DNA of 64,000 nt, from the NCBI GenBank assembly GCA_017557435.1, contig JAFYYR010000016.1:62001-126000 (forward strand). Direction: 5' to 3'. Shown here in pieces: positions 3,097-24,533 of this stretch (position 1 is its first letter; each line of letters opens with the position of its first letter). Source of the stretch: Pseudobutyrivibrio sp. GTDB taxonomy: Bacteria > Bacillota > Clostridia > Lachnospirales > Lachnospiraceae. The translations under genes were made by a program, and so were the position numbers. The notes beneath the pieces were generated by a model. It made no database searches and was not told the origin of the DNA. It saw nothing but the letters and a program-made list of their open reading frames with translations.

Positions 3097-3116
3097 AATT
3101 AACTCCAAATCTACAG

Positions 3117-4217: not shown

Positions 4218-4226
4218 AATCCGTAT

Positions 4227-5372: not shown

Positions 5373-5391
5373 TTTTACCTCAGTCAAATAA

Positions 5392-6651: not shown

Positions 6652-6666
6652 TTTATACTCTCCTAT

Positions 6667-7542: not shown

Positions 7543-8987
7543 TTAATCACACTTATGAGCTCAACTGTAGGGTCTTTGGTTCCCTGTAAGCTACAGCCCT
7601 TCTCCTTTGCAAATTCAATATAATCAATAATTTCCCTAGTGATTCTCTCTCCAGGAGTAAGAATTGGTATTCCTGGTGGATAACACATAACAAGCTCTGC
7701 GCAGATTTTGCCGTCAGTCTGCTCAAGAGGGAGCTGTACTTTATCTGCGTAAAATGCCTGCTGAGGAGTCATCACGTTCTCCGGTTGAATAAATTCTCCG
7801 CAATATAAATTGCTAGAATCCTTCTCATAGAGACGCTTGATATCCTCAAGCGCTCCTACAAGTCGCTCAATATCCTGAATTCTATCTCCAATTGAAATAT
7901 AAGCTAGAATATTTCCAATATCTCCAAATTCAATTTGAATATCATATTCATCTCTAAGGAGATCATAGACCTCAATTCCAGTAAGTCCTATTCCCTGGGT
8001 ATAGATGGAAAGCTTTGTTACATCAAAATCGTATACGCTGTCTCCATCTATCAATTCCTTACCATATGCATAAAATCCACCGATTTCATTTATCTCATTT
8101 CTGGCATACTCAGCCATATGAGCCACCTTTTCAAATGACTCTTTTCCTCTAAGTGCCAGATTTCTTCTAGACAAATCAAGGCTTGATAAAAGTAGATAAG
8201 AAGCACTTGTTGTTTGAGTTAAATTGATAATCTGACGTACATATTCTGCATCCATATCTGGTCCGCAAAGTAAGATGGAACTCTGAGTCAGAGAGCCGCC
8301 TGACTTATGCATTGAAACTGCAGCCATATCCGCACCTGCAGCCATACCAGAAATTGGCAGGTTATCGCTGAAATAAAGATGGGTTCCATGGGCCTCATCT
8401 GCAAGTACCTTCATGCCTCGCTCATGGGCAAGCTTTACAATCTCAGTAAGGTTAGAGCATATGCCATAGTAGGTTGGATTATTAATAAATATAGCCTTGG
8501 CATCAGGATTTAAATCCATAACACGTCTGACCTCATCAACCTCCACACCAAGAGCAATACCAATCTCTGGATTAACTTTTACCTCCACATATACTGGCAC
8601 CGCACCACACAGCACTAATGCATTGATTACACTCTTATGGACATTTCTTGGTATAAGAATCTTATCTCCAGCCTTGCAGACAGAAAGAATCATAGTCTGA
8701 ACTGAGCTGGTGGTTCCATTAACCATAAGAAATGCATGGGCAGCCCCAAAGGCATCTGCTGTAAGCTCCTCTGCTTCCTTAATAACAGAAATAGGGTGTC
8801 CCAAATTGTCCAGAGGCTTCATAGAATTAACATCAAGGCCAACACACTGTTTGCCAAGTAATTCTACAAGCTCCGGGTTACCACGACCACGCTTGTGACC
8901 GGGTACGTCAAATGGGACCACCCTTCTTCTTTTAAATCGCTCCAATGCTTCGCATATTGGAGCTGCTTTTTGTTCATATTTTTTCAC
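7539..8987 (-). CDS. speA: Arginine decarboxylase, fold-type I Orn/Lys/Arg decarboxylase family
   Basis: PLP enzyme likely to form agmatine from arginine. FDVPGHKRGRG near the N-terminus, DEAHGTHLYFS and the PLP lysine in AVSMHKSGGSLTQSS are diagnostic of this family, and the size of about 482 residues matches the Bacillus SpeA type rather than the large inducible enterobacterial enzymes. A GTG start at 8987 is chosen because AAGGGG lies eight bases upstream. Arginine rather than lysine or ornithine is inferred from aguA and aguB in the same operon. A near-consensus promoter precedes it. Confidence 0.9.
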   Translation of the reverse strand: MKKYEQKAAPICEALERFKRRRVVPFDVPGHKRGRGNPELVELLGKQCVGLDVNSMKPLDNLGHPISVIKEAEELTADAFGAAHAFLMVNGTTSSVQTMILSVCKAGDKILIPRNVHKSVINALVLCGAVPVYVEVKVNPEIGIALGVEVDEVRRVMDLNPDAKAIFINNPTYYGICSNLTEIVKLAHERGMKVLADEAHGTHLYFSDNLPISGMAAGADMAAVSMHKSGGSLTQSSILLCGPDMDAEYVRQIINLTQTTSASYLLLSSLDLSRRNLALRGKESFEKVAHMAEYARNEINEIGGFYAYGKELIDGDSVYDFDVTKLSIYTQGIGLTGIEVYDLLRDEYDIQIEFGDIGNILAYISIGDRIQDIERLVGALEDIKRLYEKDSSNLYCGEFIQPENVMTPQQAFYADKVQLPLEQTDGKICAELVMCYPPGIPILTPGERITREIIDYIEFAKEKGCSLQGTKDPTVELISVIK

Positions 8988-9025
8988 TAAATTGACCCCT
9001 TTTAACACTAAAAAATGCAAGTAAA

Positions 9026-9066: not shown

Positions 9067-9831
9067 CTATCTTACTCCAAATCTGTATAAGAATTTCTTA
9101 CCTAAAAATCTAAGAAGCTTATCTGCCAATAAACCGATTAATCCAAGAGTGAAAATACCTGCAAAAATCCAATCAGTTCTATAAAATAGTCGTGATGTAT
9201 AAATCAAGTATCCCAAGCCTTCTGAAGCTGCAAGCATTTCAGCTGCCACTATACAGATAATGGCACTACTAAGTCCAAGGCGTACTCCTGTAAAAATATT
9301 TGGAATGGCCGATGGAAAAACAACTGTAAAAAATGTTTTTCTCTTGCTAGCCCCCATGGATTCAGCTGCTTCAATCAGTGAATGATCAACGCTTCGCACT
9401 CCTGCAATTGTATTTACCATAACAGGAAATATTACCGCATAAAAAATAAGTGCAACTTTAGATTTCTCCTCTACGCCAAACCAAAGCAAAAATAATGTTA
9501 TAAAACCAATGGCTGGAACAAATCTAAAGAAATTCAAAAATGGTTCAAATACATAACTTGCCCATTTGAAATTGCCAACACAAAGTCCAACGGGAATTGC
9601 AAATAATAGTCCAGCTGTCCAGCCCTTTAATACACGACCCATACTTACATAAATATCAGTCCATAACTTACCACTTGTAATAAGTGTTTTAGCCCCATCT
9701 AATGTAATGATAGGATTCGGTAAAAAATCAGGTGTATAAAAGGATGAACCAATTGACCAAATTGCAAGTAATAATATCCACGTAATTAATCCACTTTTTA
9801 ATACTTTATTAATTGTCTTATTGTTTTCCAT
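9067..9831 (-). CDS. ABC transporter permease, sulfonate/nitrate/taurine (SsuC/TauC) family
   Basis: Inner-membrane component of an importer, about 254 residues with roughly six hydrophobic segments. The EAA loop that contacts the ATPase is visible as EAAESMGASKRKTFFTVVFP. AGAGG lies upstream of the ATG at 9831; a GTG three codons earlier is less likely. It is the third gene of an SBP-ATPase-permease set and ends the long sulfur-linked transcription unit. The family carries sulfonates, nitrate, taurine, pyrimidines and other small organics, so the substrate cannot be named from sequence. Confidence 0.88.
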   Translation of the reverse strand: MENNKTINKVLKSGLITWILLLAIWSIGSSFYTPDFLPNPIITLDGAKTLITSGKLWTDIYVSMGRVLKGWTAGLLFAIPVGLCVGNFKWASYVFEPFLNFFRFVPAIGFITLFLLWFGVEEKSKVALIFYAVIFPVMVNTIAGVRSVDHSLIEAAESMGASKRKTFFTVVFPSAIPNIFTGVRLGLSSAIICIVAAEMLAASEGLGYLIYTSRLFYRTDWIFAGIFTLGLIGLLADKLLRFLGKKFLYRFGVR

Positions 9832-9842
9832 AGCAGTCACCT

Positions 9843-10913
9843 CTAAATATAGTACATCTCAGGATTGTCTTTAAGAATTTCATTGATTAAGGTATATGCG
9901 TTATCCTCATCAAAGGCATATAATCTTGTTACTTTAAAGAGAATGTCATCCCCTTTTTTAGCGGGGAAATCATCAATCTGATGAGCGGCCTTTAATTCTA
10001 TACCCTCATATTCAATAGTAAGTTCCATACTATTGCCTCTAAATTCTGTATGTACAATCTTTCCAGGCATATATGCACTTGACTGTTCCTTGTTGCCACT
10101 GCTATGAACCACATTTACAAACTCAGGTCTAATAGCTGCTTTAGGAGCTCCATCCTGTCTTGTAAAGCCCTTTAGCTTTTCATACTCATATTCCTCAAGA
10201 ATCACAGAATCTCCAATAAACTGTGCCACAAAAGGTGTTTTTGGATTTCTATAAATATCAACAGGAGTACCAATCTGCTCAACTTTTCCCTCATTAGTAA
10301 TTATTAATTCATCAGCAACCTCTACAGCCTCATCTTGGTCATGGGTAACAAAAATACTGGTAATTCCAAGTTTTTCTATCATATCCTTTAGCCATCTACG
10401 AAGTTCTTTTCTAACCTTTGCATCAATTGCTGCAAATGGCTCATCCAAAAGAAGCACTTGTGGTTCTGTAGCAAGAGCTCTGGCAAAGGCAACTCTTTGC
10501 CTTTGCCCTCCTGACAACTGGTCAGGGAATCTTTTGCCAAGACCTGTAAGGCCAACTAATTCCAGTAATTCCTCAACTTTACTATCTATTTCAGCCTTGC
10601 TCTTTTTACGAATTTTCATTCCATAAGCAATATTGTCATAAACAGTTAAATAAGGGAAAAGCGCATAACTTTGAAATACAAATCCAATTCCTCTATCTTG
10701 AACTGGAATTCCATTTACAAGTTTTCCATCTATATAAATATCTCCAGAATCCTGATGTTCAAGACCTGCTAGCATCCTTAAGATTGTTGTCTTACCACTT
10801 CCACTAGGTCCTAAAAGTGCAACAAGCTTTCCCTTTTCAATCTCAATATTCACATTATTTGATGCTTTAAAATTTCCAAAATTCTTATTTATGTTCTCTA
10901 ATTTAATATACAT
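9843..10913 (-). CDS. ABC transporter ATPase with C-terminal TOBE-like domain
   Basis: Energises the adjoining permease. Walker A GPSGSGKTT, Q-loop, signature LSGGQRQRVAFARALA, Walker B VLLLDEPFAAID and switch histidine VTHDQDEA are all intact. The 356 residues exceed the roughly 250 of SsuB/TauB; the extra part after residue 240 looks like the regulatory TOBE region of CysA/PotA-type ATPases. This contrasts with the short ATPase of the second importer at 14.3 kb, so the two systems are not simple duplicates. Confidence 0.92.
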   Translation of the reverse strand: MYIKLENINKNFGNFKASNNVNIEIEKGKLVALLGPSGSGKTTILRMLAGLEHQDSGDIYIDGKLVNGIPVQDRGIGFVFQSYALFPYLTVYDNIAYGMKIRKKSKAEIDSKVEELLELVGLTGLGKRFPDQLSGGQRQRVAFARALATEPQVLLLDEPFAAIDAKVRKELRRWLKDMIEKLGITSIFVTHDQDEAVEVADELIITNEGKVEQIGTPVDIYRNPKTPFVAQFIGDSVILEEYEYEKLKGFTRQDGAPKAAIRPEFVNVVHSSGNKEQSSAYMPGKIVHTEFRGNSMELTIEYEGIELKAAHQIDDFPAKKGDDILFKVTRLYAFDEDNAYTLINEILKDNPEMYYI

Positions 10914-10965: not shown

Positions 10966-12012
10966 TTATTTTTCTGTTGCTTCCCAGCTAACTCTGTCAG
11001 GGAAAGCTTCTGCCAAAGCATCTGTGTTAATGTACTTTTCTATCTGGTAGTTTGTGTCAAATCTGCCATTCTCATAGCACCAATTTTTAATCTTTACCAA
11101 ATCATCATATGCTTCTTGCTCAAATGAATAGTAATGACGTCTTGCATTCCACTCTGCTTTGAATATTTCCTTATCTAGACCAGTGTCTGCTGAAACCCAA
11201 TCAGCAAACTGGTCAATATTCTCATCTATATAAGCAAATCCTTCTTCGCTAACCTTTAAATATTTTGCCACTTCGTGCTGATGTGCCTGCAAATAAGATT
11301 CATCTGCAACAAGGAATGTGTACATGTAAATTCCTAAATCATCGATACCAATAACTGGCTTCCATCCCTTTTCCTCAAACATTTTATAGTTTGCTGAGCC
11401 TGTCCAATAGGCATCTCCACCACTATTTGCAGCAAGTGCAAGGGCTTCCTGAACACTGCCAACATTTGTAATAGTTACATCCTTTGGATCAATACCATAC
11501 TGATTAAACAATTCTCCATAATAATATTCGAATACTACTCCTGCCTGAGAAACACCAATGTGACCAACCAAATCCTCTGGCTTTTTCACAGTATTAGGAT
11601 TAGCATAAAGCTTGTAATTTGAAGACTTATCAATCATAGCAAATGCTCTAAGTTCACTATCAGATAAAGTATTTCCAATTCTATTAACACCGGCGTATGT
11701 TGCAAATAATCCAATATCAACTGTATCAGTTGTAATTGCATCAATTGTATTGATTCCTGCAGAAAACTCTGTGGTCTCTAATGTAATGCCCTTGTCTTTT
11801 AGAAAATCAGTGTGATTATCTAAAATCTTAAGCAAGAAATTGTTATCCAAAGAATTAACGCCTATACGAATTGTAAATTCATCTGGATTATCAGTAACAG
11901 CACCATCATTTGCTTTTGCTGAAACACTACTAGCATTGTTGCCGCAGCCTGTAACTGAAAGTGTCAAAGAAAATGCTAAAAACAGGCTTACTATCAATTT
12001 ATATATTTTCAT
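10966..12012 (-). CDS. ABC substrate-binding lipoprotein, NMT1/TauA-like
   Basis: Extracytoplasmic binding protein with a lipoprotein signal: charged start, hydrophobic stretch and lipobox SVTGC, giving Cys at about residue 23. The mature part has the SsuA/TauA-like pattern of IGVNSLDNNFLLKIL at the start, VDIGLFATYAGVNRI and AGVVFEYYYGELFNQYGID. An AGGAGG site precedes the ATG. It follows a radical SAM gene and precedes its own ATPase and permease. The ligand is unknown; sulfonates or another sulfur organic would suit the neighbours. Confidence 0.88.
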   Translation of the reverse strand: MKIYKLIVSLFLAFSLTLSVTGCGNNASSVSAKANDGAVTDNPDEFTIRIGVNSLDNNFLLKILDNHTDFLKDKGITLETTEFSAGINTIDAITTDTVDIGLFATYAGVNRIGNTLSDSELRAFAMIDKSSNYKLYANPNTVKKPEDLVGHIGVSQAGVVFEYYYGELFNQYGIDPKDVTITNVGSVQEALALAANSGGDAYWTGSANYKMFEEKGWKPVIGIDDLGIYMYTFLVADESYLQAHQHEVAKYLKVSEEGFAYIDENIDQFADWVSADTGLDKEIFKAEWNARRHYYSFEQEAYDDLVKIKNWCYENGRFDTNYQIEKYINTDALAEAFPDRVSWEATEK

Positions 12013-12024
12013 CTAATCGTCCTC

Positions 12025-13296
12025 CTATGCTGTCTTTTCTGCTGCAGCAGAGCCATCGTCTTTGCTTGCAACTGAATCTTCACCTACAAAATGAACTCTA
12101 TCTGCCTCATGTCTAAGAATATCAAGGTGATCTCCATCAAGATCATAGAAGTAATCAAAGATTGAATTTTCTACATTTGCAGAGTGATATAAATCCTTAT
12201 GTGTTAAACCGTTTTGTCTAAGTAAACTATATGTTTTCTGATACAAATCAAAATACCATTCTGGTGATGGAGCTCTATGTCCTTCTAGCTCAGAACCAGG
12301 GTTAGGTGTCCAGTGAAGTGGTATTGCCACAACTCCAAGTTCTGTAAGGTACTGAATACCCTCTAAGAGAGTTGACTTAGGCTCAATACCAGCTACAAAG
12401 AACGAACGAACATTACCTTTTCCAAATACCTCTACCTCTTTTTTAAGAGCATCAATCCAATTTTGTCTTCCGCCGCAAATCTTTTCTTTTCCAGGGCAGA
12501 TTGTCTTAAAGAAATTTGCATCCCAAATCTCAAGGTTTGTTGAAATGGCTCTATAACCTGCTTCCTTGTATTTTTCAATAACAGACAAATCACTTGGAGC
12601 ACCTACACATGCAGTGCCACCGAAATCTGTAAGTCCTGTAATATCCTGAATAGCTTCAGCCACGTCGATGTAGTACTCTACCTCGCGTCGCTCAGGAACG
12701 AATCCGCCTGTAATTGTAATAGACTCATATCCCTCTTCTCTTGCCTTAGCATAAGTCTCAGCTATCTGATATGGTGTCTTCCAAGAAATACCTTGAATGT
12801 CGGCAAAGCGACTCTTTGTAGCATTTATATTACAGAACTTGCAATCAAGACCCTTGTCCTTAAGTGCACACTCATTACTATATGCAACTGTAACTTTTGT
12901 CTTACCTACTTCATTTGCAATAGTCTTCATATTGACACCATCAGATGTCTTAAAGTTATAAAATGCTGGCTTTTCAACAAATGTTATTTCACTAATCTGA
13001 TTTCCTTTTTCTGTAAGATAATACTTACCATTGTCATTCTCTACAGAAAATGGAGCATCATGTTTGTAGGAAAATCTGATTCTATAATTACTATCAAGTC
13101 TTATGGCTGTAGGAAGCTTTGACTTTAAATAAGTCTCATGATTCATATCAAAACATGTTTGCATCTGCTCCTGAACCTTATTTTCAAAATCGATTGTAGA
13201 TACTACCTCTGGGCTAATATAAACACCCTCATTAGTAATCCTGTTATCCAGTTCCAACTGCTTGTAAAGCTCTTCTCTTGTAATTGCTCGTGACAT
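12025..13296 (-). CDS. Radical SAM protein with atypical cluster motif (copy 1)
   Basis: The 423-residue protein has a TIM-barrel radical SAM appearance, but the three likely cluster cysteines are C143, C152 and C155 (ECALKDKGLDCKFCN), a CX8CX2C spacing instead of CX3CX2C. Further shared marks are ITGGFVPERREVEYYIDVAEAIQ and a second Cys pair in ICPGKEKICGGRQNW. The paralogue at 16.6 kb has the same features. AGGAGG precedes the ATG. It lies downstream of a leader peptide and terminator and is followed by an importer. It may modify the imported compound or build a cofactor for the nitrogenase-like enzyme; neither is shown. Confidence 0.8.
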   Translation of the reverse strand: MSRAITREELYKQLELDNRITNEGVYISPEVVSTIDFENKVQEQMQTCFDMNHETYLKSKLPTAIRLDSNYRIRFSYKHDAPFSVENDNGKYYLTEKGNQISEITFVEKPAFYNFKTSDGVNMKTIANEVGKTKVTVAYSNECALKDKGLDCKFCNINATKSRFADIQGISWKTPYQIAETYAKAREEGYESITITGGFVPERREVEYYIDVAEAIQDITGLTDFGGTACVGAPSDLSVIEKYKEAGYRAISTNLEIWDANFFKTICPGKEKICGGRQNWIDALKKEVEVFGKGNVRSFFVAGIEPKSTLLEGIQYLTELGVVAIPLHWTPNPGSELEGHRAPSPEWYFDLYQKTYSLLRQNGLTHKDLYHSANVENSIFDYFYDLDGDHLDILRHEADRVHFVGEDSVASKDDGSAAAEKTA

Positions 13297-13698: not shown

Positions 13699-14130
13699 CT
13701 ATGCCAGTTCACTTGCTGGAAATACAACTTGCTTATCTTCCTTAGAAAAGTCAAGAACCTTTACAGATTTGCTTTCAACTCTATAAATAATATTGGCCTC
13801 TGGAGTATATCTAAGCTGAGGTCTTCTCTTTTTGATAAGCTCTACAGCCACTGCTGTCTCTTTCTCATCAAGCTTTCTTGCCTTACCATAAAGAGTAATA
13901 TTTTTAGGTGCCTCCTGCCCCTCATGTTGGAAAAGAAGAGCCACATTATTGTTGTTAGCAATTTCTCTTGTCTTATCAGTATCCTTACCTGTTGAAAAGA
14001 GGATGTCTTTTCCATCAATTGTGTATCCACCTATGTGACGAATCTGAGGATTGCCTGCCTCATCAACCGTTGCTAATACTAAGCTTTTGTTCTCGTAAAT
14101 ATAATCTTTAATCTCTCCTAACGCTGCCAT
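13699..14130 (-). CDS. Pyridoxamine 5'-phosphate oxidase-family (split-barrel flavin-binding) protein
   Basis: The 143-residue protein begins LATVDEAGNPQIRHIGGYTIDGKDILFSTGKDTDKTREI, the typical start of the FMN-binding split-barrel fold, and continues with VALLFQHEGQEAPKNITLYGKARKL. The start MAALGEIKDY is preceded by AGGAG; longer reading frames from 14184 lack a site. Family members bind FMN, F420 or heme, so true PdxH activity is unlikely. It is flanked on both sides by the conserved-motif terminators, making it a separately gated cistron in the sulfur cluster. Confidence 0.85.
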   Translation of the reverse strand: MAALGEIKDYIYENKSLVLATVDEAGNPQIRHIGGYTIDGKDILFSTGKDTDKTREIANNNNVALLFQHEGQEAPKNITLYGKARKLDEKETAVAVELIKKRRPQLRYTPEANIIYRVESKSVKVLDFSKEDKQVVFPASELA

Positions 14131-14191
14131 AATTATCTCCTTTCTCATATCTGACATTTTCAATTTTTTCTTATTTATATTCACTATTTAT

Positions 14192-14282: not shown

Positions 14283-15071
14283 CTATATTATATATTCGAT
14301 TTCATAATCTACATCTGAGTCTTCAAAGAAGTAATCGTAAATCTTTTTCTTATACTCAGCAAATTTAGCGCTACCACGCTTTTTTGATTCCACAGGATCT
14401 GTCTCTATTATTTCCTTGATTTCTCCAGGACGTGCAGACATTACCACGATTCTGTCACCAAGGTAAATTGCTTCATCAATATCATGTGTAACCATTACCA
14501 TGGTAGTCTTCTCTTTTTCTTGTATATCAAGAATCTCCTTTTGCATCTGAATTCTAGTAAGAGCATCTAATGCACCAAATGGTTCATCAAGAAGTAAAAT
14601 TGCGGGATTATTGGCAAGTCCTCTGGCTATGGCTGCCCTTTGACTCATTCCTCCAGACAGCTGTGCCGGATAACTATTCTCAAAACCCTCTAAGCCAACC
14701 ATTTTAAGATGGCTAAGGACATTTTTTTCCTTTTCTTCTTTAGAAAGGTCTTTTAAACCAAAACCAACGTTATCCTTGATTTTAAGCCATGGAAGAAGTC
14801 TATGATCCTGAAATACCATGCCACAATTAGGGCCAGGACCGTCTACTGGATGGCCGTTTCTTTCAACAGTTCCATCTTCATAATCTACTAGTCCACACAT
14901 AATTTTAAGCAAGGTGCTCTTTCCACAACCCGAATGACCTACAATAGTAATGAATTCACCTTCTTTGATTTCAAGGTTAATATCATTCAATACTCTTATT
15001 GGATTTTTATCAACAACAAATTCCTTATTCAGATTATGTATTTTTATAATGTTATTATCCTTAATGCCCAT
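14283..15071 (-). CDS. ABC transporter ATPase, SsuB/TauB family
   Basis: ATP-hydrolysing subunit of the second importer, 262 residues. Walker A GHSGCGKST, signature QLSGGMSQRAAIARGLA, Walker B ILLLDEPFGALDA and VTHDIDEAIYLGDRI are intact, and no TOBE domain follows. A GAGGAG site is seven bases upstream of the ATG. It is separated from its permease by the nucleosidase gene. The long, acidic C-terminal tail is ordinary for this family. Confidence 0.92.
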   Translation of the reverse strand: MGIKDNNIIKIHNLNKEFVVDKNPIRVLNDINLEIKEGEFITIVGHSGCGKSTLLKIMCGLVDYEDGTVERNGHPVDGPGPNCGMVFQDHRLLPWLKIKDNVGFGLKDLSKEEKEKNVLSHLKMVGLEGFENSYPAQLSGGMSQRAAIARGLANNPAILLLDEPFGALDALTRIQMQKEILDIQEKEKTTMVMVTHDIDEAIYLGDRIVVMSARPGEIKEIIETDPVESKKRGSAKFAEYKKKIYDYFFEDSDVDYEIEYII

Positions 15072-15115: not shown

Positions 15116-15823
15116 TCAGCCAATTTCTTCTAAAAAAGGAACAAGCAGTTCTGTAGGTCTAATTTTTAATTTCTTGTCTATTTCTTTTTCTTTATCATCG
15201 ATATTATTTGCCTTTTTATTTTCAATGATTTCTATAGACTCATCATTAGCCAAATCAGAAAAAATTCGCAAGGCGGCAAACTCCACATTTTTTGCGGTAG
15301 CCACTTGAGCTATAGCTGCTGTTTCCATATCAAAGGAAACTGGATTATATGTCTCGATAATATTTTTTCTTTCTGTTTCATCACTTAAAAAGAAATCCCC
15401 TGTTGCAAGCTTTCCTGTGATGTAATCAAAATTATTTTCTTCAGCAGATTTCTCAAGTCCATCTATTATCCAATCTTCTGTATCTTTAATCTTTGGATAG
15501 TTATCATCAATGTAAGGATGGAAATCAGTCTGAACATAGCTCTTTCCAATGGCTACTGTACCTCTTTTTGCGTTAGGTGCAAGTCCACCAGAAACACCAA
15601 TATTTACAATGAAATCCGGATTGAATTCACTGATAACATCTGCTGTATTATATGCTGCATTTACTTTTCCCACTCCAAGGACTTTTACATACAAATCAAT
15701 ATCTTTTTTGTCATGTCTGTATAAATTCTCTCTAGTCCTTGACCAACCTTCTCTTTTATCAAGATACTCATGGATGTACTCAGTTTCCTCATCCATTGCA
15801 CTTACTATTGCTACTCTTTTCAT
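15116..15823 (-). CDS. mtnN: 5'-methylthioadenosine/S-adenosylhomocysteine nucleosidase
   Basis: Cleaves adenine from MTA, SAH or 5'-deoxyadenosine. VNIGVSGGLAPNAKRGTVAIG and the catalytic/base-binding block SFDMETAAIAQVATAKNV followed by LRIFSDLAND match the MTAN fold; the usual acidic residue is the D of SDLAN. The 235 residues fit. Its ATG overlaps the permease stop by four bases, tying it to the importer operon. It would serve both SpeE (MTA) and the two radical SAM proteins (5'-deoxyadenosine), so its place here is functionally sensible. Confidence 0.92.
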   Translation of the reverse strand: MKRVAIVSAMDEETEYIHEYLDKREGWSRTRENLYRHDKKDIDLYVKVLGVGKVNAAYNTADVISEFNPDFIVNIGVSGGLAPNAKRGTVAIGKSYVQTDFHPYIDDNYPKIKDTEDWIIDGLEKSAEENNFDYITGKLATGDFFLSDETERKNIIETYNPVSFDMETAAIAQVATAKNVEFAALRIFSDLANDESIEIIENKKANNIDDKEKEIDKKLKIRPTELLVPFLEEIG

Positions 15824-16581
15824 TTATTGTTCTCCCATGGTGTAATCTTTTTAAAGATTTTTGATAGAATCCAATCAGTTCCAATACCTATAACTCCAAT
15901 TAAAATAATGCAAAGAATCACCTGATCTGACTTAAGCATACTTCTCGCATCATTTAATCGGTATCCAATTCCTGATGAAGCACCTAACATTTCGGCAGCC
16001 ACTACAGCCATCCAAGAAGCTCCCATTCCAAGCTTTAAGCCCACTAAAATTGATGGAAGTGCATTTGGTAAATACACCTTAACAAAAGTCTCCCACTTTC
16101 CAAGCTTGTAAAGGTTTGCCACTTCAAGGAGCAAATCGGATGTAGAAGCAACACCGCTCATGGTGTTAATCATTATTGGAAATGTTGCGGCGATAACTAT
16201 AATAACGACCTTTGACACTTCACCTATTCCACACCAGAGAATAATAAGCGGAATCCAAGCAATAATAGGAACCTGTCTAATGGCTGTTGCAGCCGGCAAT
16301 ATAAGCTTTCTCACAAATGGAATCATACCAGCTAAAGCTCCTAATGCTATTCCAAGTAATGAAGCTAACAGATATCCTTGAATAACTCTTAAAAGACTTG
16401 CAATAAGATCCTGCTGCAGTTGCCCATTTTGAGTTAGGTTTTTAAAGGCTTCAAATACATCACTAATCTTTGGAAGAATAGCACCTGACACATTGTTAAT
16501 TGTCGTGGCATAGAACCATGCCACAACAATCAAAAGCGGAATTATGATACTTATATTAGCGTCCTTAAGTTTGTTACTCAT
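15820..16581 (-). CDS. ABC transporter permease, SsuC/TauC family (second system)
   Basis: About 253 residues with six predicted membrane segments, including a long first helix (IIIPLLIVVAWFYATTI). The ATPase-contact loop is LLEVANLYKLGKWETFVKVYLP, with NALPSILVGLKLGMGASW after it. AGGAGG precedes the ATG. It belongs with the binding protein at 17.85 kb and the ATPase at 14.28 kb, from which it is separated by the radical SAM and nucleosidase genes respectively. Confidence 0.88.
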   Translation of the reverse strand: MSNKLKDANISIIIPLLIVVAWFYATTINNVSGAILPKISDVFEAFKNLTQNGQLQQDLIASLLRVIQGYLLASLLGIALGALAGMIPFVRKLILPAATAIRQVPIIAWIPLIILWCGIGEVSKVVIIVIAATFPIMINTMSGVASTSDLLLEVANLYKLGKWETFVKVYLPNALPSILVGLKLGMGASWMAVVAAEMLGASSGIGYRLNDARSMLKSDQVILCIILIGVIGIGTDWILSKIFKKITPWENNK

Positions 16582-16591
16582 AATTATCCTC

Positions 16592-17821
16592 CTAAACAGC
16601 TAAAGCAGACTTATTCTCCTTCTCACTTTCGATACCTTCCTCCTTGAAGATAGGTAATCTTTCCTCTTCGATTCTGTAGAAATCTAATACTAAGAAATCT
16701 GGAGATGGAGAAACATCTAAATACTGCTCGTATGTAATACCAGCCTGCTTATGTAAAAGATAAGTCTTCTGGGCCATATCATAGTGCCACTCATAAGTAG
16801 GTGTTCTGTGTCCCTCAAGCTTTGAGCCTGGATTTGGGCACCAAGCATTTGTTAAGCAGATAACACCTTTCTTGGTAAGAATTTCTACACCCTCAAGAGT
16901 TCTTTCCTTTGGCTCAATTCCAGCTACAAATCCTGTTCTAACACGACCCTTGCCAAAGACAGATACAGCCTTATCAAGTGCAGCAATCCAATTTTCTCTA
17001 CCACCACACTCTTTTTCCTTTCCTGGGCAAATTACTCTAAAGTAGTTTTCATCCCAAACTTCCAGCTGAATAGCAAGTGTTCTAAAACCTGCCTCCTTGT
17101 ATTTTTCAATAACAGATAAATCTGCAGGTGCACCAATAACAGCTGTTCCGTTAAAATCTTCAAGGCCAGTCTCATCCTGAATAGCCTCAGCAACATCAAT
17201 GTAGTAATCTACCTCTCTACGCTCTGGAACAAATCCACCAGTAAGATTTACATGTTTTCCTTCACCAAGTCTAAATGCCTCAGCAACTGTCTCACCAATT
17301 TGTTTAGGATTCTTCCACTGAATGTTTTCCTTTTCAGCATAAGTATCCTTTGTAGCATTTGCGTTGCAGAATAAGCAATCTAAGCCTTTTTCCTTAAGGG
17401 AGCATTCATTACTATATGCAATACTTACTACACCATTTGAAAAAGTAGCTACATGTGACATTTCTGTTCCATCAGATGTCTTTTTACTATAGTACTCAGG
17501 TCTCTGGTCGAATTCGATTGGGAACTTCTCAACACCGTTATCAAATAAAACAAACTGACCATCAATATACTTAATCTCTACACTTGATCTAGGATCCCAT
17601 GCAAAAGAGTACCGAAGACCGCTTGGAGATGTAAAATTGCAAGGGAATAAAACTTCAGGATGAGCCACATGATCCATTTCAAATAAAGCATGAATCTGCT
17701 CCTGATATTTTCCTCCCAAATCAAGATTCTTAAAAATCTTTGGGTCTACTTTAATTCCATCAACATTTACTTTAGCTTTAAATTTTAACTCGCTATATAA
17801 TTTATCTTTTATAGTGCTCAT
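16592..17821 (-). CDS. Radical SAM protein with atypical cluster motif (copy 2)
   Basis: A 409-residue paralogue of the protein at 12.0 kb. The cluster cysteines are C140, C149 and C152 (ECSLKEKGLDCLFCN), again CX8CX2C, and the second pair is in ICPGKEKECGGRENW. LTGGFVPERREVDYYIDVAEAIQDETG is nearly identical to copy 1, while the N-terminal 120 residues are more divergent. It is the only gene between the second binding protein and its permease. The two copies appear dedicated to the two importers, or to two steps around the nitrogenase-like enzyme. Confidence 0.8.
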   Translation of the reverse strand: MSTIKDKLYSELKFKAKVNVDGIKVDPKIFKNLDLGGKYQEQIHALFEMDHVAHPEVLFPCNFTSPSGLRYSFAWDPRSSVEIKYIDGQFVLFDNGVEKFPIEFDQRPEYYSKKTSDGTEMSHVATFSNGVVSIAYSNECSLKEKGLDCLFCNANATKDTYAEKENIQWKNPKQIGETVAEAFRLGEGKHVNLTGGFVPERREVDYYIDVAEAIQDETGLEDFNGTAVIGAPADLSVIEKYKEAGFRTLAIQLEVWDENYFRVICPGKEKECGGRENWIAALDKAVSVFGKGRVRTGFVAGIEPKERTLEGVEILTKKGVICLTNAWCPNPGSKLEGHRTPTYEWHYDMAQKTYLLHKQAGITYEQYLDVSPSPDFLVLDFYRIEEERLPIFKEEGIESEKENKSALAV

Positions 17822-17849: not shown

Positions 17850-18914
17850 TTACTTGCCACTTTCAAGCTCTGTTTTAGCCTTTTCGAAATATGAAAGATC
17901 ATACCAAGAATCAACGTCAAAATCCCCATCTGACAAATCATTTTCCTGAAGGAATGATAATGTCTTTTTAGCATTTGCTATAACATCATCTGTTGCATCG
18001 AGTTCTGAATAATTATCGTGTAGTGGATACGCATAATCATAACTTTCAGCTGCATATCCAACTGCAACCCACTGATCCTTCAAAGCATTTTCATTTGCTT
18101 CAATATACTCATTAGCTCTAAGAACTGCTTTCAAATATGCTACTGCCACATCTGGATTTGAATTTAAATACTCAGTTCTGATTTCTGTAATTGAACCAGC
18201 TGCCCATCCTTCATGGTCATTGCTAAATAATATTTCTTTAAAACCATTTTCCTTTGCAAGTCTGTAACTTACATCATTAGGCTGTACAACTGCTGCATCG
18301 ATACTCTTTGTCTCTAATGCTGCCAATGCATCCTGTGAAGTCATTGGAACGAATTCAATATCATCTATAGTGAGTCCTTCCTCTTCAAGTGCATATAAAA
18401 GTAATCTGTGCATAAATGCACCCTTTTGAGTAGCAACCTTTTTGCCTTTTAAATCCTTTACTGAATCAATTCCTGAATCTGGATTTGCAGAAATAACAAT
18501 ATAGTTATTCAAACCATTAAATGCGATTACTGTTGTGTCAATTCCGTTAGCCTTACCATTAACAGCAGGTACATCTCCTAAAATACCGATATCAAGGCTT
18601 CCAGATGCTAATGCCTCATTGATTGCTGGGCCGGCACCTGACATAGGAATAAGATTAACCTTTACACCTATCTTTTCAAATTCCTCTTCAAAATATCCGT
18701 TATCTCTTGCAATTCCTTCACTTCCTAAAAGAATATTGGAACCTGAAGTATCAACAAATCCAATATTTACCTCTCTGGTAAGACCGGTTGCTGCCTCTAT
18801 ATTTTCCTCTTTATTTGCAAGTCCATTATCAGAAGTGCCACCGCAGCCTGTAAAAGCTGATAAAACAAATGTACCAACTAAAGCTGCCAGCACGGTCTTT
18901 TTCAATTTCTTCAT
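17850..18914 (-). CDS. ABC substrate-binding lipoprotein, SsuA/TauA-like (second system)
   Basis: 354 residues with a lipoprotein signal (KKLKKTVLAALVGTFVLSAFTGCGG; lipobox FTGC). The mature part has VNIGFVDTSGSNILLGSEGIARDNGYFEEEF, SGAGPAINEALASGSLDIGILGDVPAVNG and IDSVKDLKGKKVATQKGAF, the canonical pattern of aliphatic-sulfonate/nitrate binding proteins. AGGAGG precedes the ATG. It directly follows the K-like nitrogenase subunit gene, linking substrate uptake with that enzyme. The ligand is not known. Confidence 0.9.
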   Translation of the reverse strand: MKKLKKTVLAALVGTFVLSAFTGCGGTSDNGLANKEENIEAATGLTREVNIGFVDTSGSNILLGSEGIARDNGYFEEEFEKIGVKVNLIPMSGAGPAINEALASGSLDIGILGDVPAVNGKANGIDTTVIAFNGLNNYIVISANPDSGIDSVKDLKGKKVATQKGAFMHRLLLYALEEEGLTIDDIEFVPMTSQDALAALETKSIDAAVVQPNDVSYRLAKENGFKEILFSNDHEGWAAGSITEIRTEYLNSNPDVAVAYLKAVLRANEYIEANENALKDQWVAVGYAAESYDYAYPLHDNYSELDATDDVIANAKKTLSFLQENDLSDGDFDVDSWYDLSYFEKAKTELESGK

Positions 18915-18933: not shown

Positions 18934-20367
18934 CTAAATAGATTCTCTTGATGCCAGTTCTGAAATTAAATTTAATTGTTTTACATGGCTCTTTTTAGAA
19001 GAATGGTCCTGCCAAGTCTTCTGTCCCTTTAACTGCTTTAAATAATTATAAAGCTCTTCTGATTTTTCCTTTTCTGCCTGTTTTATTGTTGTGAGATAAT
19101 CACTTACAAATTCCACAGAACCTCGTATTCCAGCTGTAGATTGATTAAGAATACTTTTGTGATAAACAGGATATGAGGCTTCTATCAATGGAATTCCAAC
19201 CTTATTAGCTATATTCACCTCAAGAGAGCTTCCTATCACAAGTTCAGCCTTAGACTGTCTGATAATATCATCAATATCTTTCTGGTCAGATGTCTTGTAT
19301 ACATTGGTTGTTACCTGTGCAAAAAGATCATCATTGTTCAATTCATGCTCTTCATCCTTTTTCAAAGAATCAGTAAGAACTGCAGCAACAATTTTTGCTC
19401 CAAATACATCCTTCGCTATTCTTCCCAATCTTATTACCTGCTCTTCATCGCCAACAATAGCTACAGATTTACCAATGGCATACTCAATCACTTCATCACG
19501 AATTCTTGAGTAGTAGTTGCTTTCATATGCTAGTTCCTTATTTAAGAAAACATCTACCGCATCTTGATCTACGGAAATCACTTTACCAATTTCATCTATT
19601 AACTCTTTTTCCTCTAAAGCATTCACTGGAAGTGCTGCTTTTTGAATTACTGGTATATCAAATTTTTCATTAAGGACCTTTGCAGGTAATTCTCCCCAGC
19701 GACCAAACACAATTGAAAGAGATGCGTTCTTTGCATTATCAATATCTTCTACGCCTCCACTTACTCCAAAGAATACATTGGCCTCAATTCCTACACCCTT
19801 TAAAATTCTCTTAATCTCTTCTAAATTTCCTTGCCAATATGGATCCTTATCAGGAATAATTCCAAAGATATTTACAAGTTTTGAATTCTTATTAGACTCA
19901 GAAGGTTTTACATCATAAACAGATTTAAATACGTCAGCCAATACGTGCTCATAACCAAAGTGTGCGCCACCATTGAAACCTGCAATAAGTGTATCTACCA
20001 CTGGCTCATTCTGTTCCACTATTTCCCTAGTCATAGCATCAACATCATCTCCTACCATAGCTGATTCACAGCTATTAAGGATCACATAAAGAGCTCCATC
20101 AACTACCTTAATAGTGTTTTTAATCTGTTCTCTCAGTCTTGATGCTCCACCAAAAATAACATGTCTCTCTTGAGCCGCTGTTCCTGGAATAGAGTATCCT
20201 GAATATCTAGCTGAACCTCCTGTAGTTTTTGAATTTGCAAGATAATTAATAACTCCACATCCTGCGTTAGCATGTACAATTGGTACTACACTGTTTATTT
20301 CCTGAACTGTCTGTAAAGCACCATGAAGGGCACATCCATTTCTAGGATTTTTGATAATATCTGCCAT
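18934..20367 (-). CDS. Nitrogenase-like component 1, K-like subunit
   Basis: 477 residues of the nitrogenase component-1 family (NifK/BchB/CfbD-like). Exactly three cysteines occur in the whole protein, at the positions of P-cluster ligands: C12 (NGCALHGA), C37 (NAGCGVINY) and C100 (NSCESAMVGDD). It would pair with the D-like subunit to hold a bridging iron-sulfur cluster. ATG follows the D-like stop without a gap (TAAATG) and AGGAGG is upstream. This is not an N2-fixing locus: no NifB, NifE or NifN is present. The closest known analogies are the DPOR, CfbCD and methylthio-alkane reductase branches; substrate unknown. Confidence 0.82.
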   Translation of the reverse strand: MADIIKNPRNGCALHGALQTVQEINSVVPIVHANAGCGVINYLANSKTTGGSARYSGYSIPGTAAQERHVIFGGASRLREQIKNTIKVVDGALYVILNSCESAMVGDDVDAMTREIVEQNEPVVDTLIAGFNGGAHFGYEHVLADVFKSVYDVKPSESNKNSKLVNIFGIIPDKDPYWQGNLEEIKRILKGVGIEANVFFGVSGGVEDIDNAKNASLSIVFGRWGELPAKVLNEKFDIPVIQKAALPVNALEEKELIDEIGKVISVDQDAVDVFLNKELAYESNYYSRIRDEVIEYAIGKSVAIVGDEEQVIRLGRIAKDVFGAKIVAAVLTDSLKKDEEHELNNDDLFAQVTTNVYKTSDQKDIDDIIRQSKAELVIGSSLEVNIANKVGIPLIEASYPVYHKSILNQSTAGIRGSVEFVSDYLTTIKQAEKEKSEELYNYLKQLKGQKTWQDHSSKKSHVKQLNLISELASRESI

Positions 20368-21762
20368 TTAACTTACCTCCTGCTTTACATACCAGTTTCC
20401 GCTACGCTTCTTGAAACTTTCTCTGTAGCTACTTGTCTGTCTGTACTTTTCCTGGAATTCGTCCACCTTTTTTATAGCATTTGCAATAACTTCCACGCCT
20501 TTAAAGCCGTAAGTAACCTTATACTTTGTGGAAATCACAACTGCTCCCTCATGGGTAGCAAAAGAACTTCCGGATTTTTCACTAAAATAGATATCTATTT
20601 CGTTCTTAGATAGCTCATTTGCCTTTTCAAATTGCTGTCCATTTCCAATAATTGCTATAGTAGTCTTTGGCAAGAAATCTAATTTTTTCAGCTGCTTTCT
20701 ATTATCCAAATCTACAAAGGAAGAAGAAAAGCCAACAACTTCTCCACCTAAATTTGTAAACAATCTCGCATAAGCAGGAACTCGACTAAGAGCTACATCA
20801 ACAAAAATTTTCTTATCCTTTAACACATCCTTTATTACTACCTGTGATAACTCTGCTTCTGCTTTATCGATGTATTCAACCACTTCATCCTCGATATTCA
20901 AAAATGCTGCAAGCTTTAAAAGAAAATTCTTAGTTCCTCTAAATCCCACTGGTACATCAGTCTCTATGTAAGGGACATCAAAAACCTCCTCAAGCTCTTT
21001 AGCTAGATACTCACCCTCTTCTGGGTTAAGCACTATTGATGCTCTTGCCTTTGATGCTCTTCTGATTTCATCCACATTTGAGAATCTTGGAAGTATCTGG
21101 AATTTGATATCAAGCTCGTTAAAAATATCAGCTATAACTGCTACGTCCTCAATATCTTCTGAATAAGAAATGATATTTATAAAATCTTCCTTAATATCCA
21201 CATTTTTTGAAACAAGATACTTTAGAATACTATGTGTAACAATGTCATATCCTGTAACAGGTGTTTTTGTTTTAAAACCATCTGTGTAAATGCTGATAAT
21301 TGGAATACCTATCTCATCCTCAAGCTCCAATATAACCGAATTAATGTCATCATTATTGATAGCTACAACAGGTGTCCCCAGGATAAAAATTGCCTTTGGA
21401 TGCTTTTCTTCATAGGCTCTAAGAATTGCCTCGGAAAGTTTATCATCTCCACCTAAAATAGTGTCTCTTTCCACAAGATTTGTTGAATACCAGCTAAAGT
21501 TTTCAAAATCATTTTGTGCTATTCCTATGGCTCCACATCCTATGGAGCCATTTACTATAATTGCCGCATCTTCAATTGTTGAAAGAACATCAAATGCATA
21601 AATAGTTTCATCATCATGTATTTGGGAGAAGGTTCGAATTCTCTGCTTTATCTCCTCACCTGATGTTTCATCGATTAGAGCTTCCAAATTACCATGAAAA
21701 TGGCTAAGGGAACTTAAGCGTTTTTCTCTTGTTAACGCTTTTCTTTCATCTAAAAAACTCAT
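20368..21762 (-). CDS. Nitrogenase-like component 1, D-like subunit
   Basis: 464 residues, lying between the H- and K-like genes as nifD does. Recognisable are IVNGSIGCGAIG and FILGTPVVAINNDDI, the latter in place of the usual CxxxxIGDD block. Only one cysteine, C76, exists in the entire chain, so two of the three usual P-cluster cysteines and the Cys/His ligands of an iron-molybdenum-type cofactor are absent. With three Cys from the K-like partner this gives a four-Cys site, as for a [4Fe-4S] cluster. The active site probably binds an organic substrate directly or an as yet unknown cofactor. Confidence 0.8.
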   Translation of the reverse strand: MSFLDERKALTREKRLSSLSHFHGNLEALIDETSGEEIKQRIRTFSQIHDDETIYAFDVLSTIEDAAIIVNGSIGCGAIGIAQNDFENFSWYSTNLVERDTILGGDDKLSEAILRAYEEKHPKAIFILGTPVVAINNDDINSVILELEDEIGIPIISIYTDGFKTKTPVTGYDIVTHSILKYLVSKNVDIKEDFINIISYSEDIEDVAVIADIFNELDIKFQILPRFSNVDEIRRASKARASIVLNPEEGEYLAKELEEVFDVPYIETDVPVGFRGTKNFLLKLAAFLNIEDEVVEYIDKAEAELSQVVIKDVLKDKKIFVDVALSRVPAYARLFTNLGGEVVGFSSSFVDLDNRKQLKKLDFLPKTTIAIIGNGQQFEKANELSKNEIDIYFSEKSGSSFATHEGAVVISTKYKVTYGFKGVEVIANAIKKVDEFQEKYRQTSSYRESFKKRSGNWYVKQEVS

Positions 21763-21789
21763 CTCTTTAGGTTCTCCTTTCCCATAGCA

Positions 21790-22665
21790 TTAGATTGCCT
21801 CAGCAACTCCTACTACGCCACTTTCGATATCGTATATACGGTCTCCCCAATTTCTAGCCCAATCTCTAAGCTCTGATGAACCAAGTGGATTTGGAACTAC
21901 AAGGTTTTCATTTTCAGCGATATATTTAGCCAAATTTCTATAAATATCAGCCTGGGCACTGTTTGGCTTAGCCTCGATAACTGTCTTACCATAAAGCTCT
22001 GACTGCTGTACATCGATTGACCGATTTACATAACCTGCAATGCTTGTACCAGTCTTTGCTACAAAGTCCTCAACAATTTTTCTGTGATATCCTGGCTTCA
22101 TGCTGTTTGCAATAACACCACCAAGCTTTGCTCCACCTGTTGGCGCATATTTGTTAATGGCTTTAAAAAGATTGTTAGCCGCATATAAAGCCATGAAATC
22201 AGAAGATGATACAACATAAGCTCTGTCTGTAATTCCATCACGGATTGGAACAGCAAAACCACCACAAACAACGTCACCAAGTACGTCATAAAGTACGTAA
22301 TCAGGCTTGAACTCTTCGAAAAGATTAAGCTCCTGAAGAAGGTTAACAGCTGCGTTGATACCACGACCTGCGCATCCAACACCTGGTACTGGACCACCTG
22401 ATTCAATACAAAGTACTCCACCAAATCCCTTTACTGAAATATCATCAAGGTGAATCTTGTTACCTTCTCTTAAACTATCAAGTACTGTTGGAAGATAGTT
22501 GTTTCCTCGAAGTGTATTTGTAGAATCACTCTTTGGATCACAACCAATCTGAATTACTCTATATCCTGCCTCTGCAAGTGCTGCACTAATATTTGATGTG
22601 GTTGTTGATTTTCCGATTCCACCTTTTCCATATATAGCTATATGCTTACCAATTTTCTCTGCCAT
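21790..22665 (-). CDS. Nitrogenase iron protein-like ATPase (NifH/BchL/CfbC family)
   Basis: 291-residue electron donor that would pass electrons to the D/K complex with ATP hydrolysis. The P-loop [15 protein letters not shown], the switch region and the two cysteines that ligate the inter-subunit [4Fe-4S] cluster, C98 (PGVGCAGRG) and C134 (GDVVCGGFA), are all conserved. NifH-like features extend to [10 protein letters not shown] and [15 protein letters not shown]. Directly downstream of metK and upstream of the D-like gene. It alone cannot tell the enzyme's substrate, since all group IV reductases share this partner. Confidence 0.93.
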
Positions 22666-22681
22666 TTTCTCTTACCTTTCC

Positions 22682-23926
22682 TTATACTGTTGTAGCTTCC
22701 TTAGCTTCTGAAATAATCTGAACTGCGATGTCTACTTTGATGTCTTCAATATTCTTCTTGATCTCATCAACCTTATCTAAATGCTCCCAAGGAAGGTCGA
22801 TATCTGTCCTGCCGAAATGTCCATAAGCTGCAGTCTGCTTGTAGATTGGCCTACGTAAATCAAGGGCATCAATGATTGCTGCTGGTCTGAGATCAAATAC
22901 TTTTTCAATAATATCAACAATCTTCTCATCATCTATTACTCCTGTGCCAAATGTATCTACTGCAATAGATACTGGCTTTGCTACACCAATGGCATATGCA
23001 AGTTCAACCTCAAGTCTCTTCGCCACACCTGCTGCTACCAAATTCTTCGCTACCCAACGAGCTGCATAGGCTGCAGAACGGTCAACCTTTGTTGGATCCT
23101 TTCCTGAGAAGGCACCGCCGCCGTGACGACCTGTTCCACCATAGGTATCCACGATGATCTTACGTCCTGTCAGTCCTGCATCACCCTGAGGACCACCGAT
23201 AACAAATCTACCTGTTGGATTTACGTAGTAGATTGTATCCTCGTCCAATAACTCTGCTGGAATTACCGGCTTGATAACATGCTCGATAATATCAGCTCTT
23301 ATCTGTTCAAGAGTTACATCCTCTGCATGCTGTGTTGAAATAACAATGGTATGTACTCTCTTTACAGTCTGTCCATCTTCTGCAAATTCTACTGTTACCT
23401 GTGACTTTCCATCTGGTCTAAGGTATGGAAGTGTTCCATTCTTTCGAACTTCTGTAAGCCTTCTAGTAAGGCGATGAGCAAATGAAATAGCCGGTGGTAA
23501 ATACTCTTCTGTTTCATCTGTTGCATATCCGAAGATAATTCCTTGATCACCTGCGCCTGTTCCAAAATCCTCTGTCGCTCCTTCCTGCTTTGACTCGAAT
23601 GCCTTATCAACTCCAAGTGCAATATCAGCTGACTGCTCATCAATTGATGTAAGCACTGCGATTGAGTCTGCATTGTATCCATCTACATTATTTACGTAAC
23701 CAATCTCTCTGATTGTGTCTTTTGCAACCTTTGCGATATCCACATATGCCTTTGTAGTGATTTCACCAACTACAAGAGCAAGTCCTGTTGCTACTGTTGT
23801 CTCAGCAGCTACTCTTGAATATGGATCCTGAGCAAGTAGCTCATCAAGGATTGCATCAGAGATCTGATCTGCGATTTTGTCTGGATGTCCTTCTGTTACT
23901 GATTCTGATGTGAATAACTTTCCCAT
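22682..23926 (-). CDS. metK: S-adenosylmethionine synthetase
   Basis: Forms SAM from methionine and [31 protein letters not shown], the hexapeptide [15 protein letters not shown], and the phosphate-binding [19 protein letters not shown] are all characteristic. At 414 residues it is slightly longer than most bacterial MetK (about 380-400). GGAG precedes the ATG. A conserved-motif terminator, not an S-box, stands in its leader. As a SAM source it fits beside two radical SAM genes and a nucleosidase. Confidence 0.97.
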
Positions 23927-24042: not shown

Positions 24043-24186
24043 TTATAACCTTATCTTTTCACTTTTATCTATTTGAACTATCTTACCATCCTGTATGATG
24101 ATGTTGACCGAGCCATATTTTATTGACTCTATGTAATCTTTAATTGTTGCCAGTTGATTTTCGCTTACTACTTTTACTTCAGCCAT
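24043..24186 (-). CDS. yezD: YezD-family small protein (DUF2292)
   Basis: A 47-residue protein (MAEVKVVSENQLATIKDYIE..., then YGSVNIIIQDGKIVQIDKSEKIR) typical of DUF2292/YezD. The family is known mainly from sulfur-metabolism loci in Firmicutes, where the part I-Y-G-x-V-x-I-x-I-x-(D/N)-G-K-I-x-Q is constant; the biochemical role is not established. GGAG precedes the ATG; a longer frame from 24234 would run into the tRNA-like structure. It is the first clear structural gene after the operator and leader region. Confidence 0.85.
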   Translation of the reverse strand: MAEVKVVSENQLATIKDYIESIKYGSVNIIIQDGKIVQIDKSEKIRL

Positions 24187-24207: not shown

Positions 24208-24278
24208 TGGTGCTAGCTGGATTCGAACCAGCAACTTCAGCGATGCCTCGCCTATGCCCTTCCAGCGGCTATAGCACC
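24208..24278 (-). ncRNA. tRNA-like structure in the yezD leader
   Basis: 71 nt fold with a perfect 7-bp acceptor stem (GGTGCTA / TAGCACC plus A), U8-A9, a 3-bp D stem (GCC/GGC) with GG in the loop, and a perfect T arm GCTGG-TTCGAAT-CCAGC. The region where the anticodon arm belongs has normal length but does not form a 5-bp/7-nt hairpin: instead GGCGA/TCGCT encloses four bases, and position 33 is not U. CCA is not encoded. The 5' end abuts a terminator T tract and the 3' end lies 21 bases before the yezD ATG. Either a decayed tRNA or a tRNA mimic with a regulatory role. Confidence 0.5.
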
Positions 24279-24313
24279 AAAAAAGCCACCGCTTAATCTC
24301 TTAAGCAGTGGCT
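24279..24313 (-). terminator. Intrinsic terminator between the Cys-rich ORF and yezD
   Basis: On the minus strand AGCCACTGCTTAA-GAGA-TTAAGCGGTGGCT is followed by six T. It lies 30 bases after the stop of the 38-codon ORF and immediately before the tRNA-like structure. Because the only good promoter for yezD is upstream of the ORF, this must be a partial terminator or an attenuator. Confidence 0.85.
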
Positions 24314-24342: not shown

Positions 24343-24459
24343 TCATGGTGCAAGACGACAGGCCATGCACCCTTTAGCTCTCACTGCTTGGGAGTATAGC
24401 ATTTTACACATACACATATCCATACAACAACAAACTTTTGAATCGATATTCTGTCTCAT
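24343..24459 (-). CDS. Cys/Met-rich 38-residue ORF, possible leader peptide or metal-binding peptide
   Basis: AGGAG lies seven bases upstream of an ATG that opens MRQNIDSKVCCCMDMCMCKM, followed by an 18-residue tail containing GCMAC. Seven Cys and six Met in 38 residues is extreme. Three Cys codons are consecutive (TGT TGT TGT). Promoter with sulfur dyad upstream and terminator downstream are exactly what a Cys/Met leader peptide would need; a small thiol/metal-binding protein is the alternative. Too short for standard gene calling. I know no named family for it. Confidence 0.6.
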   Translation of the reverse strand: MRQNIDSKVCCCMDMCMCKMLYSQAVRAKGCMACRLAP

Positions 24460-24499: not shown

Positions 24500-24533
24500 A
24501 CTATAACTTTAATTACCTATCGAGTCAATAGGT
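24500..24533 (-). promoter_or_regulatory. Promoter and sulfur-type dyad of the yezD-metK-nitrogenase-like cluster
   Basis: Minus strand TTGACT (24523-24528), 17 bases, TATAGT (24500-24505). The perfect dyad ACCTAT-N7-ATAGGT at 24515-24533 covers the -35 box. It is the most symmetrical of the four complete dyads in the window, and about 40 bases upstream of the Cys/Met-rich ORF. Confidence 0.75.

Follow-up and report, generated by a model that had tools for sequence, protein, structure and literature searches.

The nitrogenase-like genes described here, from a Pseudobutyrivibrio sp. of the rumen, probably encode an isethionate-reductase-like (Isr-type) system, which would desulfonate imported sulfonates for sulfur assimilation. 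They lie in a stretch of 64,000 nucleotides (the window; positions 62,001 to 126,000 of contig JAFYYR010000016.1, assembly GCA_017557435.1) and encode an Fe protein (H) and two catalytic subunits (D and K), clustered with importers and radical S-adenosylmethionine (SAM) proteins. The assignment draws on sequence and its analysis, namely gene content, metal-ligand pattern, tree position, co-occurrence across genomes and the pairing of modules. More novel than the type of reductase is the organization of the locus: HDK forms a constant core, while the radical SAM genes reside in cassettes with their own importer.

The closest published system is IsrBHDK of Rhodobacter capsulatus, in which a nitrogenase-like HDK and a radical SAM protein free sulfite from imported isethionate (PMC11423573). 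Loss of isrB, isrH or isrDK abolishes anaerobic growth with isethionate as the sole sulfur source, isethionate use requires the importer ssuCAB, a DK mutant is rescued by a sulfite-releasing lyase, and R. sphaeroides supplied with isrBHDK and ssuCAB grows on isethionate (PMC11423573). The role of the radical SAM partner, both in Isr and in Mar (methylthio-alkane reductase), was called unclear in that work (PMC11423573). The window likewise holds H, D, K, a radical SAM protein (the NF045502 match, taken as B) and an SsuABC-type importer, in a sulfur setting. It differs in that metK, a nucleosidase and a PPOX protein belong to the cluster, and in that a single HDK is often accompanied by two or more cassettes of radical SAM protein and importer.

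An initial annotation of this DNA, made from the sequence alone, had suggested a distinct reductase that frees sulfur from an imported or salvaged compound. An imported source is probable, and the nucleosidase of the cluster can be explained without salvage of methylthioadenosine (MTA). The proteins do fall outside the Mar-like and nif clades, but the system is not new in kind, as IsrBHDK has like parts and a like metal-ligand fingerprint (PMC11423573). A search of the open PMC literature brought up nothing published on the window locus or on IsrB proteins matched to importers; one report, available as an excerpt, describes the application of IsrBHDK profiles to mouse gut genomes (PMC12330013).

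Metal ligands and relatives of the H, D and K proteins

As published, IsrD retains one P-cluster Cys, with Arg and Pro/Ser in the other two columns, IsrK has three P-cluster Cys (12, 37 and 99), IsrH has Cys99 and Cys135, and the Cys and His ligands of FeMo-co are both missing (PMC11423573). The pattern in the window matches in all three proteins: D contains a single Cys overall (C76), K exactly three (12, 37 and 100), and H has Cys98 and Cys134 within a total of four. C76, Asp51 and Pro131, the last in the Cys154 column, are invariant in the 24 aligned D proteins, 17 of which are single-Cys proteins. The FeMo-co Cys column holds Asn in 19 of them, Asp in five and Cys in none, and a counterpart of the cluster-binding His of MarD is absent from the alignment. 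The K Cys columns are conserved in 24 of 25 rows, the remaining row being a truncated open reading frame (ORF). No nifB match was found in a search of the window's genome (completeness 96.2%). The predicted structure model of D has a pLDDT of 76.

The description of HDK as a nitrogenase-like reductase was borne out, and the phylogeny that the initial annotation had named as a check sets D and K apart from Mar-like and nif proteins. In the D tree (32 rows; the R. capsulatus proteins are outside both the D and K trees) the window clade is supported at 100/100 and has Mar-like rows as its neighbours (81/80), a position like that described for IsrD, near Mar (PMC11423573); the Mar/NifB-linked (100/99) and nif (99/99) groups lie apart from it. 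The K tree agrees (window clade 100/99); a distant relative from genome G207 (locus L155, at most 34% identity) is joined at only 87/80, and its neighbours include an NF045502 radical SAM gene, a cysteine synthase gene and importer genes. The check is less informative for the Bch rows, whose very long branches make their placement unsure, and for H, whose tree was too weak and was left out of the conclusions. In the PDB, D and K both match MarDK (9d9u/9fmg) best; the radical SAM profile found no relatives there by sequence at E 0.001.

Known nitrogenase-like enzymes were set aside on several grounds. For nitrogenase (Nif/Vnf/Anf), the NifD and NifK models were not passed (for example, D scored 84 against 654 for nifD and K 67 against 427 for nifK), and the trees and ligand columns disagree as well. 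Scores fell far below the cut-offs for DPOR (BchN, BchB and BchL models: D 62 against 324 for PRK02842.1, K 108 against 490, H 234 against 345) and for CfbD (D 30 and K 24 against 268); CfbC was not passed either (H 333 against 402), and a K subunit is present here. Mar shares with the window the character of a nitrogenase-like enzyme, cleaving C-S bonds, and the excerpted account gives it a full P-cluster and an [Fe8S9C] cluster built with a NifB-like protein (PMC12552129). The window proteins lack the full set of six P-cluster Cys, the Cys270/His429 ligands and a NifB-like MarB, and form separate D and K clades.

A plasmid search for an Isr reference gave, among the matches listed, Mar-like and nif loci, and its radical SAM query led to MSMEG_0568-type genes. 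Two plasmids encountered there, from Treponema saccharophilum (L085) and Chlorohelix (L086), carry nitrogenase-like clusters with NifB- or radical SAM-, NifX- and NifH-type genes, along with ABC importers and O-acetylhomoserine sulfhydrylase genes, and group with MarD in the D tree.

Importer and radical SAM cassettes around HDK

The cassette survey comprised the window and 27 named related loci, several of which are cut, so that gene counts are lower bounds. H, D and K are contiguous on one strand in all 27 (28 of 28 with the window). Around this core, metK occurs in at least 26 of the 27, a radical SAM gene in at least 25, a nucleosidase gene in at least 17 and a PPOX gene in at least 12; two or more full-length radical SAM genes are present in at least seven. 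Counting those of the window, 33 radical SAM genes are full-length, and each of them has a binding-protein gene within 4.5 kb. When radical SAM proteins were grouped at 70% identity and binding proteins at 45%, the two sets of types agreed with an adjusted Rand index of 0.99 (maximum of 2000 shuffles, 0.35), the sole departure being L082, in which the binding protein fell into the group of the L071 and L073 proteins. Between loci (520 pairs), the rank correlation of radical SAM identity was higher with the binding protein (0.60; partial, 0.59) than with D (0.28; partial, 0.24). The correlation with importer ATPase identity was weak (0.26-0.27), partly because the 'nearest ATPase' rule assigned one gene to both cassettes. 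Four same-locus pairs of radical SAM proteins are 44-58% identical, with one HDK each, and L060 and L061 hold two copies of one type. Radical SAM type thus tracks the importer, HDK being linked as well, and from this we infer that a substrate-dedicated radical SAM protein is favoured.

The nearest named genomes are also Pseudobutyrivibrio (D is 94% identical to that of P. xylanivorans MZ8). On the minus strand of the window the order is yezD-metK-H-D-K, SsuA-like binding protein, radical SAM protein, permease, nucleosidase, ATPase, PPOX, second radical SAM protein and second importer (Table 1); ORFs and profile scores agree with the initial annotation on the placement of H, D and K beside these genes. 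D and K are the sole PF00148 matches found in the 2.84-Mb genome.

Table 1. Features of the window and, in the last four lines, fusion genes of related loci
Feature	Coordinates	Strand	Basis and remarks
Operator CCTATTGACTCGATAGG	24516..24532	-	motif search; upstream of yezD-metK
Cys-rich 38-aa leader ORF	24343..24459	-	7 Cys, 5 Met
Terminator-like hairpin and T run	24279..24313	-	after leader ORF; -18.9 kcal/mol
YezD/DUF2292 peptide	24043..24186	-	PF10055, 67.7 bits
metK, second genome copy	22682..23926	-	TIGR01034, 582 vs cut-off 309 bits
H, Fe protein (ATPase/reductase component)	21790..22665	-	PF00142, 318 bits; Cys98 and Cys134 among four Cys
D, catalytic subunit	20368..21762	-	PF00148, 199 bits (cut-off 28.6); one Cys (C76); Asn246 at FeMo-co Cys column
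K, catalytic subunit	18934..20367	-	PF00148, 213 bits (cut-off 28.6); Cys12/37/100
Importer 1 binding protein, SsuA-like	17850..18914	-	TIGR01728, 154.9, below cut-off 163.5
Radical SAM protein 1	16592..17821	-	NF045502, 456.8 bits, cut-off 125
Importer 1 permease	15820..16581	-	reading of ORF; tblastn homologues in relatives
MTA/SAH (S-adenosylhomocysteine) nucleosidase	15116..15823	-	TIGR01704, 77.2 vs cut-off 73.8
Importer 1 ATPase	14283..15071	-	PF00005, 119 bits
PPOX (split-barrel flavoprotein-like) protein	13699..14184	-	PF01243, 58 bits
Radical SAM protein 2	12025..13296	-	NF045502, 448 bits; 45-47% identity to radical SAM protein 1
Importer 2 binding protein, NMT1-like	10966..12012	-	PF09084, 51 bits
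Importer 2 ATPase	9843..10913	-	reading of ORF sequence
Importer 2 permease	9067..9840	-	reading of ORF sequence
BadF-HGD-D fusion gene	L069:18940-21391		beside or within reach of nitrogenase-like HDK
BadF-HGD-D fusion gene	L071:19291-21387		as above
BadF-HGD-D fusion gene	L161:4763-7985		as above
BadF-HGD-D fusion gene	L187:2245-5181		as above

Co-occurrence was followed in genome searches that scored a limited number of first-look candidates in each genome (4-8 in two of the searches), so that D counts are lower bounds; D and K of G207 were missed in this way. Among 200 genomes of the family, a D match of at least 50% identity is present in three (any D match in 43), and radical SAM matches of at least 44% occur in the same three, with weaker ones (25-33%) in 11 others. 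Within the genus, 16 of 29 genomes have D and exactly those 16 have a strong radical SAM match (best E <1e-120), counts that ignore kinship; three more have weak radical SAM matches only (27-34%). At the level of the phylum, the radical SAM profile matches 17 of 398 genomes. D and K were adjacent in only one (G207) of ten stretches around distant radical SAM genes. Wider stretches, covering five of the other nine (G147, G192, G174, G367 and G211) and one side of G285, yielded nothing further but a three-Cys HDK in G147, 13-18 kb off. At this distance the radical SAM family can do without a neighbouring HDK, in keeping also with chemistry of its own for the radical SAM protein. One of these genomes, G192, has three radical SAM genes of the window's family, metK, PPOX and importer genes within 13 kb (L160:3613-16447); H, D and K were not found in the stretches fetched.

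Four loci, L069, L071, L161 (G147) and L187 (G426), encode a BadF-type ATPase fused to HGD-D inside a radical SAM cassette. The L069 protein resembles double-cubane reductases, at a score below the model cut-off (232 against 350). Where such cassettes lie near HDK, a single sulfur cluster holds ATP-driven reductases of two kinds. Replacement of HDK by HGD-D/BadF was rejected as a rule: L069, L071 and G426 carry both, and in G147 HDK is 13-18 kb away. HGD-D was found near a radical SAM gene in three of 19 genomes searched (G147, G426 and G329, the radical SAM protein of the last being a distant relative), and the window's own genome gave no HGD-D match. Other cassette genes include a short-chain dehydrogenase before one radical SAM type (L071:5625-6317, L073:5620-6312) and a MATE exporter after another (L069, L071, L073), which may hint at substrate or product.

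Sulfur assimilation, SAM supply and regulation

Of the genome's two metK copies, one lies in the cluster; the second metK and the nucleosidase fit heavy SAM use. MTA/SAH nucleosidases can also dispose of the 5'-deoxyadenosine that radical SAM enzymes produce, so that the MTA salvage considered in the initial annotation is not needed to account for this gene. The genome's only PF01077 gene, of the sulfite-reductase type, lies outside the window, about 12 kb beyond its left end and about 30 kb from HDK, with CysD and AprA, both above cut-offs, an O-acetylhomoserine-sulfhydrylase-type gene, and putative siroheme and sulfate-importer genes read from ORFs. Given this set of genes, the cell is probably able to use sulfate as well, and sulfonates would supplement that supply.

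An operator shared with sulfur genes, as originally suggested, is supported within the window, where near-copies of CCTATTGACTCGATAGG occur at 36930 and 42462: counting both strands of this nearly palindromic motif, there are five matches at three sites against 0.16 expected. Site 42462 lies beside a B12-independent methionine synthase gene, and site 36930 precedes genes for a hydrolase and an amino-acid importer (model match to lysine/arginine/ornithine, below cut-off), possibly for cystine. Elsewhere the motif is patchy, being present upstream of metK in 7 of 24 regions of relatives (up to four mismatches; 18 of 500 random pieces) and in none of the sulfate-assimilation stretch left of the window. 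An Rrf2-family regulator is encoded at 39359-39760, in the stretch with the near-copies; we would guess that it binds the operator, and sulfur or Fe-S status may be its signal.

Upstream of metK, 11 of 25 regions (the window among them) carry a Cys-rich leader ORF (at least six Cys and 15%), with differing sequences and each time a terminator-like hairpin behind it. The background was 22 of 1000 draws, where some draws close to metK were passed over and scored as misses; some of the loci are near-copies. Judged from its sequence, this arrangement suggests attenuation by cysteine supply. Between terminator and yezD lies a tRNA-like element (24208-24278, minus strand; Rfam tRNA, 38.7 bits), in which ARAGORN calls no tRNA and whose D-arm/anticodon region misfits the model. 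No SAM riboswitch for metK reached the Rfam gathering score within the window.

The proposed pathway and its alternatives

The Isr-type pathway would begin with the uptake of sulfonates by the two SsuABC-type importers. The H dimer and DK would pass ATP-gated low-potential electrons, probably via one Fe-S cluster, of presumed type, held between Cys76 of D and Cys12, Cys37 and Cys100 of K. HDK and the importer-matched radical SAM protein would then cut the C-S bond with release of sulfite, a product carried over from the genetics of Isr, and sulfite would pass to the sulfite-reductase-type and O-acetylhomoserine-sulfhydrylase-type enzymes encoded to the left of the window. MetK would provide SAM, and the nucleosidase would remove 5'-deoxyadenosine. 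The glycyl-radical isethionate lyase IslAB, as excerpts describe it, likewise takes sulfonate to sulfite by an oxygen-independent radical route; no glycyl radical enzyme was noticed among the window genes, which encode a nitrogenase-like reductase instead.

We propose a division of labour in which specificity for the substrate lies with the radical SAM protein, and HDK serves in common as the ATP-driven reductant. A fully modular scheme, which we offer tentatively and hold at clearly less than an even chance, would have one HDK electron source and one cassette per sulfonate, whose radical SAM enzyme uses SAM stoichiometrically to open the C-S bond; such consumption would account for metK and the nucleosidase in the cluster. 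It is just as tentative that some cassettes would add a BadF/HgdC ATPase with a double-cubane-type reductase. The literature searched held no such partnership, with HDK as reductant of a radical SAM reaction. Alternatively, HDK of an Isr-type sulfonate reductase might alone recognise the substrate and cleave the C-S bond, the radical SAM proteins being maturases or activators that are multiple through chance inheritance of cassettes. The chance of this being correct lies not far below even; it sits uneasily with a single HDK serving such divergent radical SAM types, with their tracking of the importer and not of D, and with metK and the nucleosidase, which suggest SAM use beyond the needs of a maturase.

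Several observations weigh against the Isr-type assignment. The likeness was judged from the published description, the R. capsulatus Isr sequences not being in the comparison. Seven of the 24 aligned D proteins have two to four Cys, and the Cys62 column of D holds the invariant Asp51 where Arg is published for IsrD, in an ambiguous part of an alignment without IsrD among its rows. The importers were initially called sulfonate-type, and they do have the family resemblance, but the SsuA-like binding proteins of the window (154.9 and 47.5) both fall below the SsuA-family cut-off of 163.5; those of L069 and L071 pass it (191 and 199) and that of L187 fails (61). Below their equivalog or subfamily cut-offs, too, are the sulfite-reductase-type (165 against 324) and O-acetylhomoserine-sulfhydrylase-type (433 against 495) genes. 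Pairing of radical SAM protein and importer is partly expected from physical linkage, although HDK is linked too. Finally, H, D and K were not found in nine of the ten stretches around distant radical SAM relatives, contrary to strict coupling.

Beyond sulfonates, the cell might salvage MTA or some other thioether of internal origin, in which case the importers would be neighbours with no part in the process. This reading draws on the nucleosidase and metK and on putative polyamine genes (read from ORFs) downstream of the cluster at 2221-9020, an observation confined to the window; it is very improbable, and the binding-protein gene near each of the 33 full-length radical SAM genes speaks against it. 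Mar or a close relative, releasing methanethiol from thioethers, is likewise very improbable: MarDK is the best PDB match and no group in the D tree lies nearer than the Mar-like rows, but D and K form clades of their own, Cys270 and His429 of MarD are both without counterpart, two of the three P-cluster Cys are gone in D, and the genome has no nifB match.

With one HDK and several importer-matched radical SAM types, Pseudobutyrivibrio represents a natural experiment, which opens to testing the question of whether the radical SAM protein acts as a maturase or, as one half of the enzyme, confers substrate specificity. An Isr-type system of this kind would suggest how anaerobes of rumen and gut, by a path distinct from that of glycyl-radical lyases, obtain their sulfur from several sulfonates.

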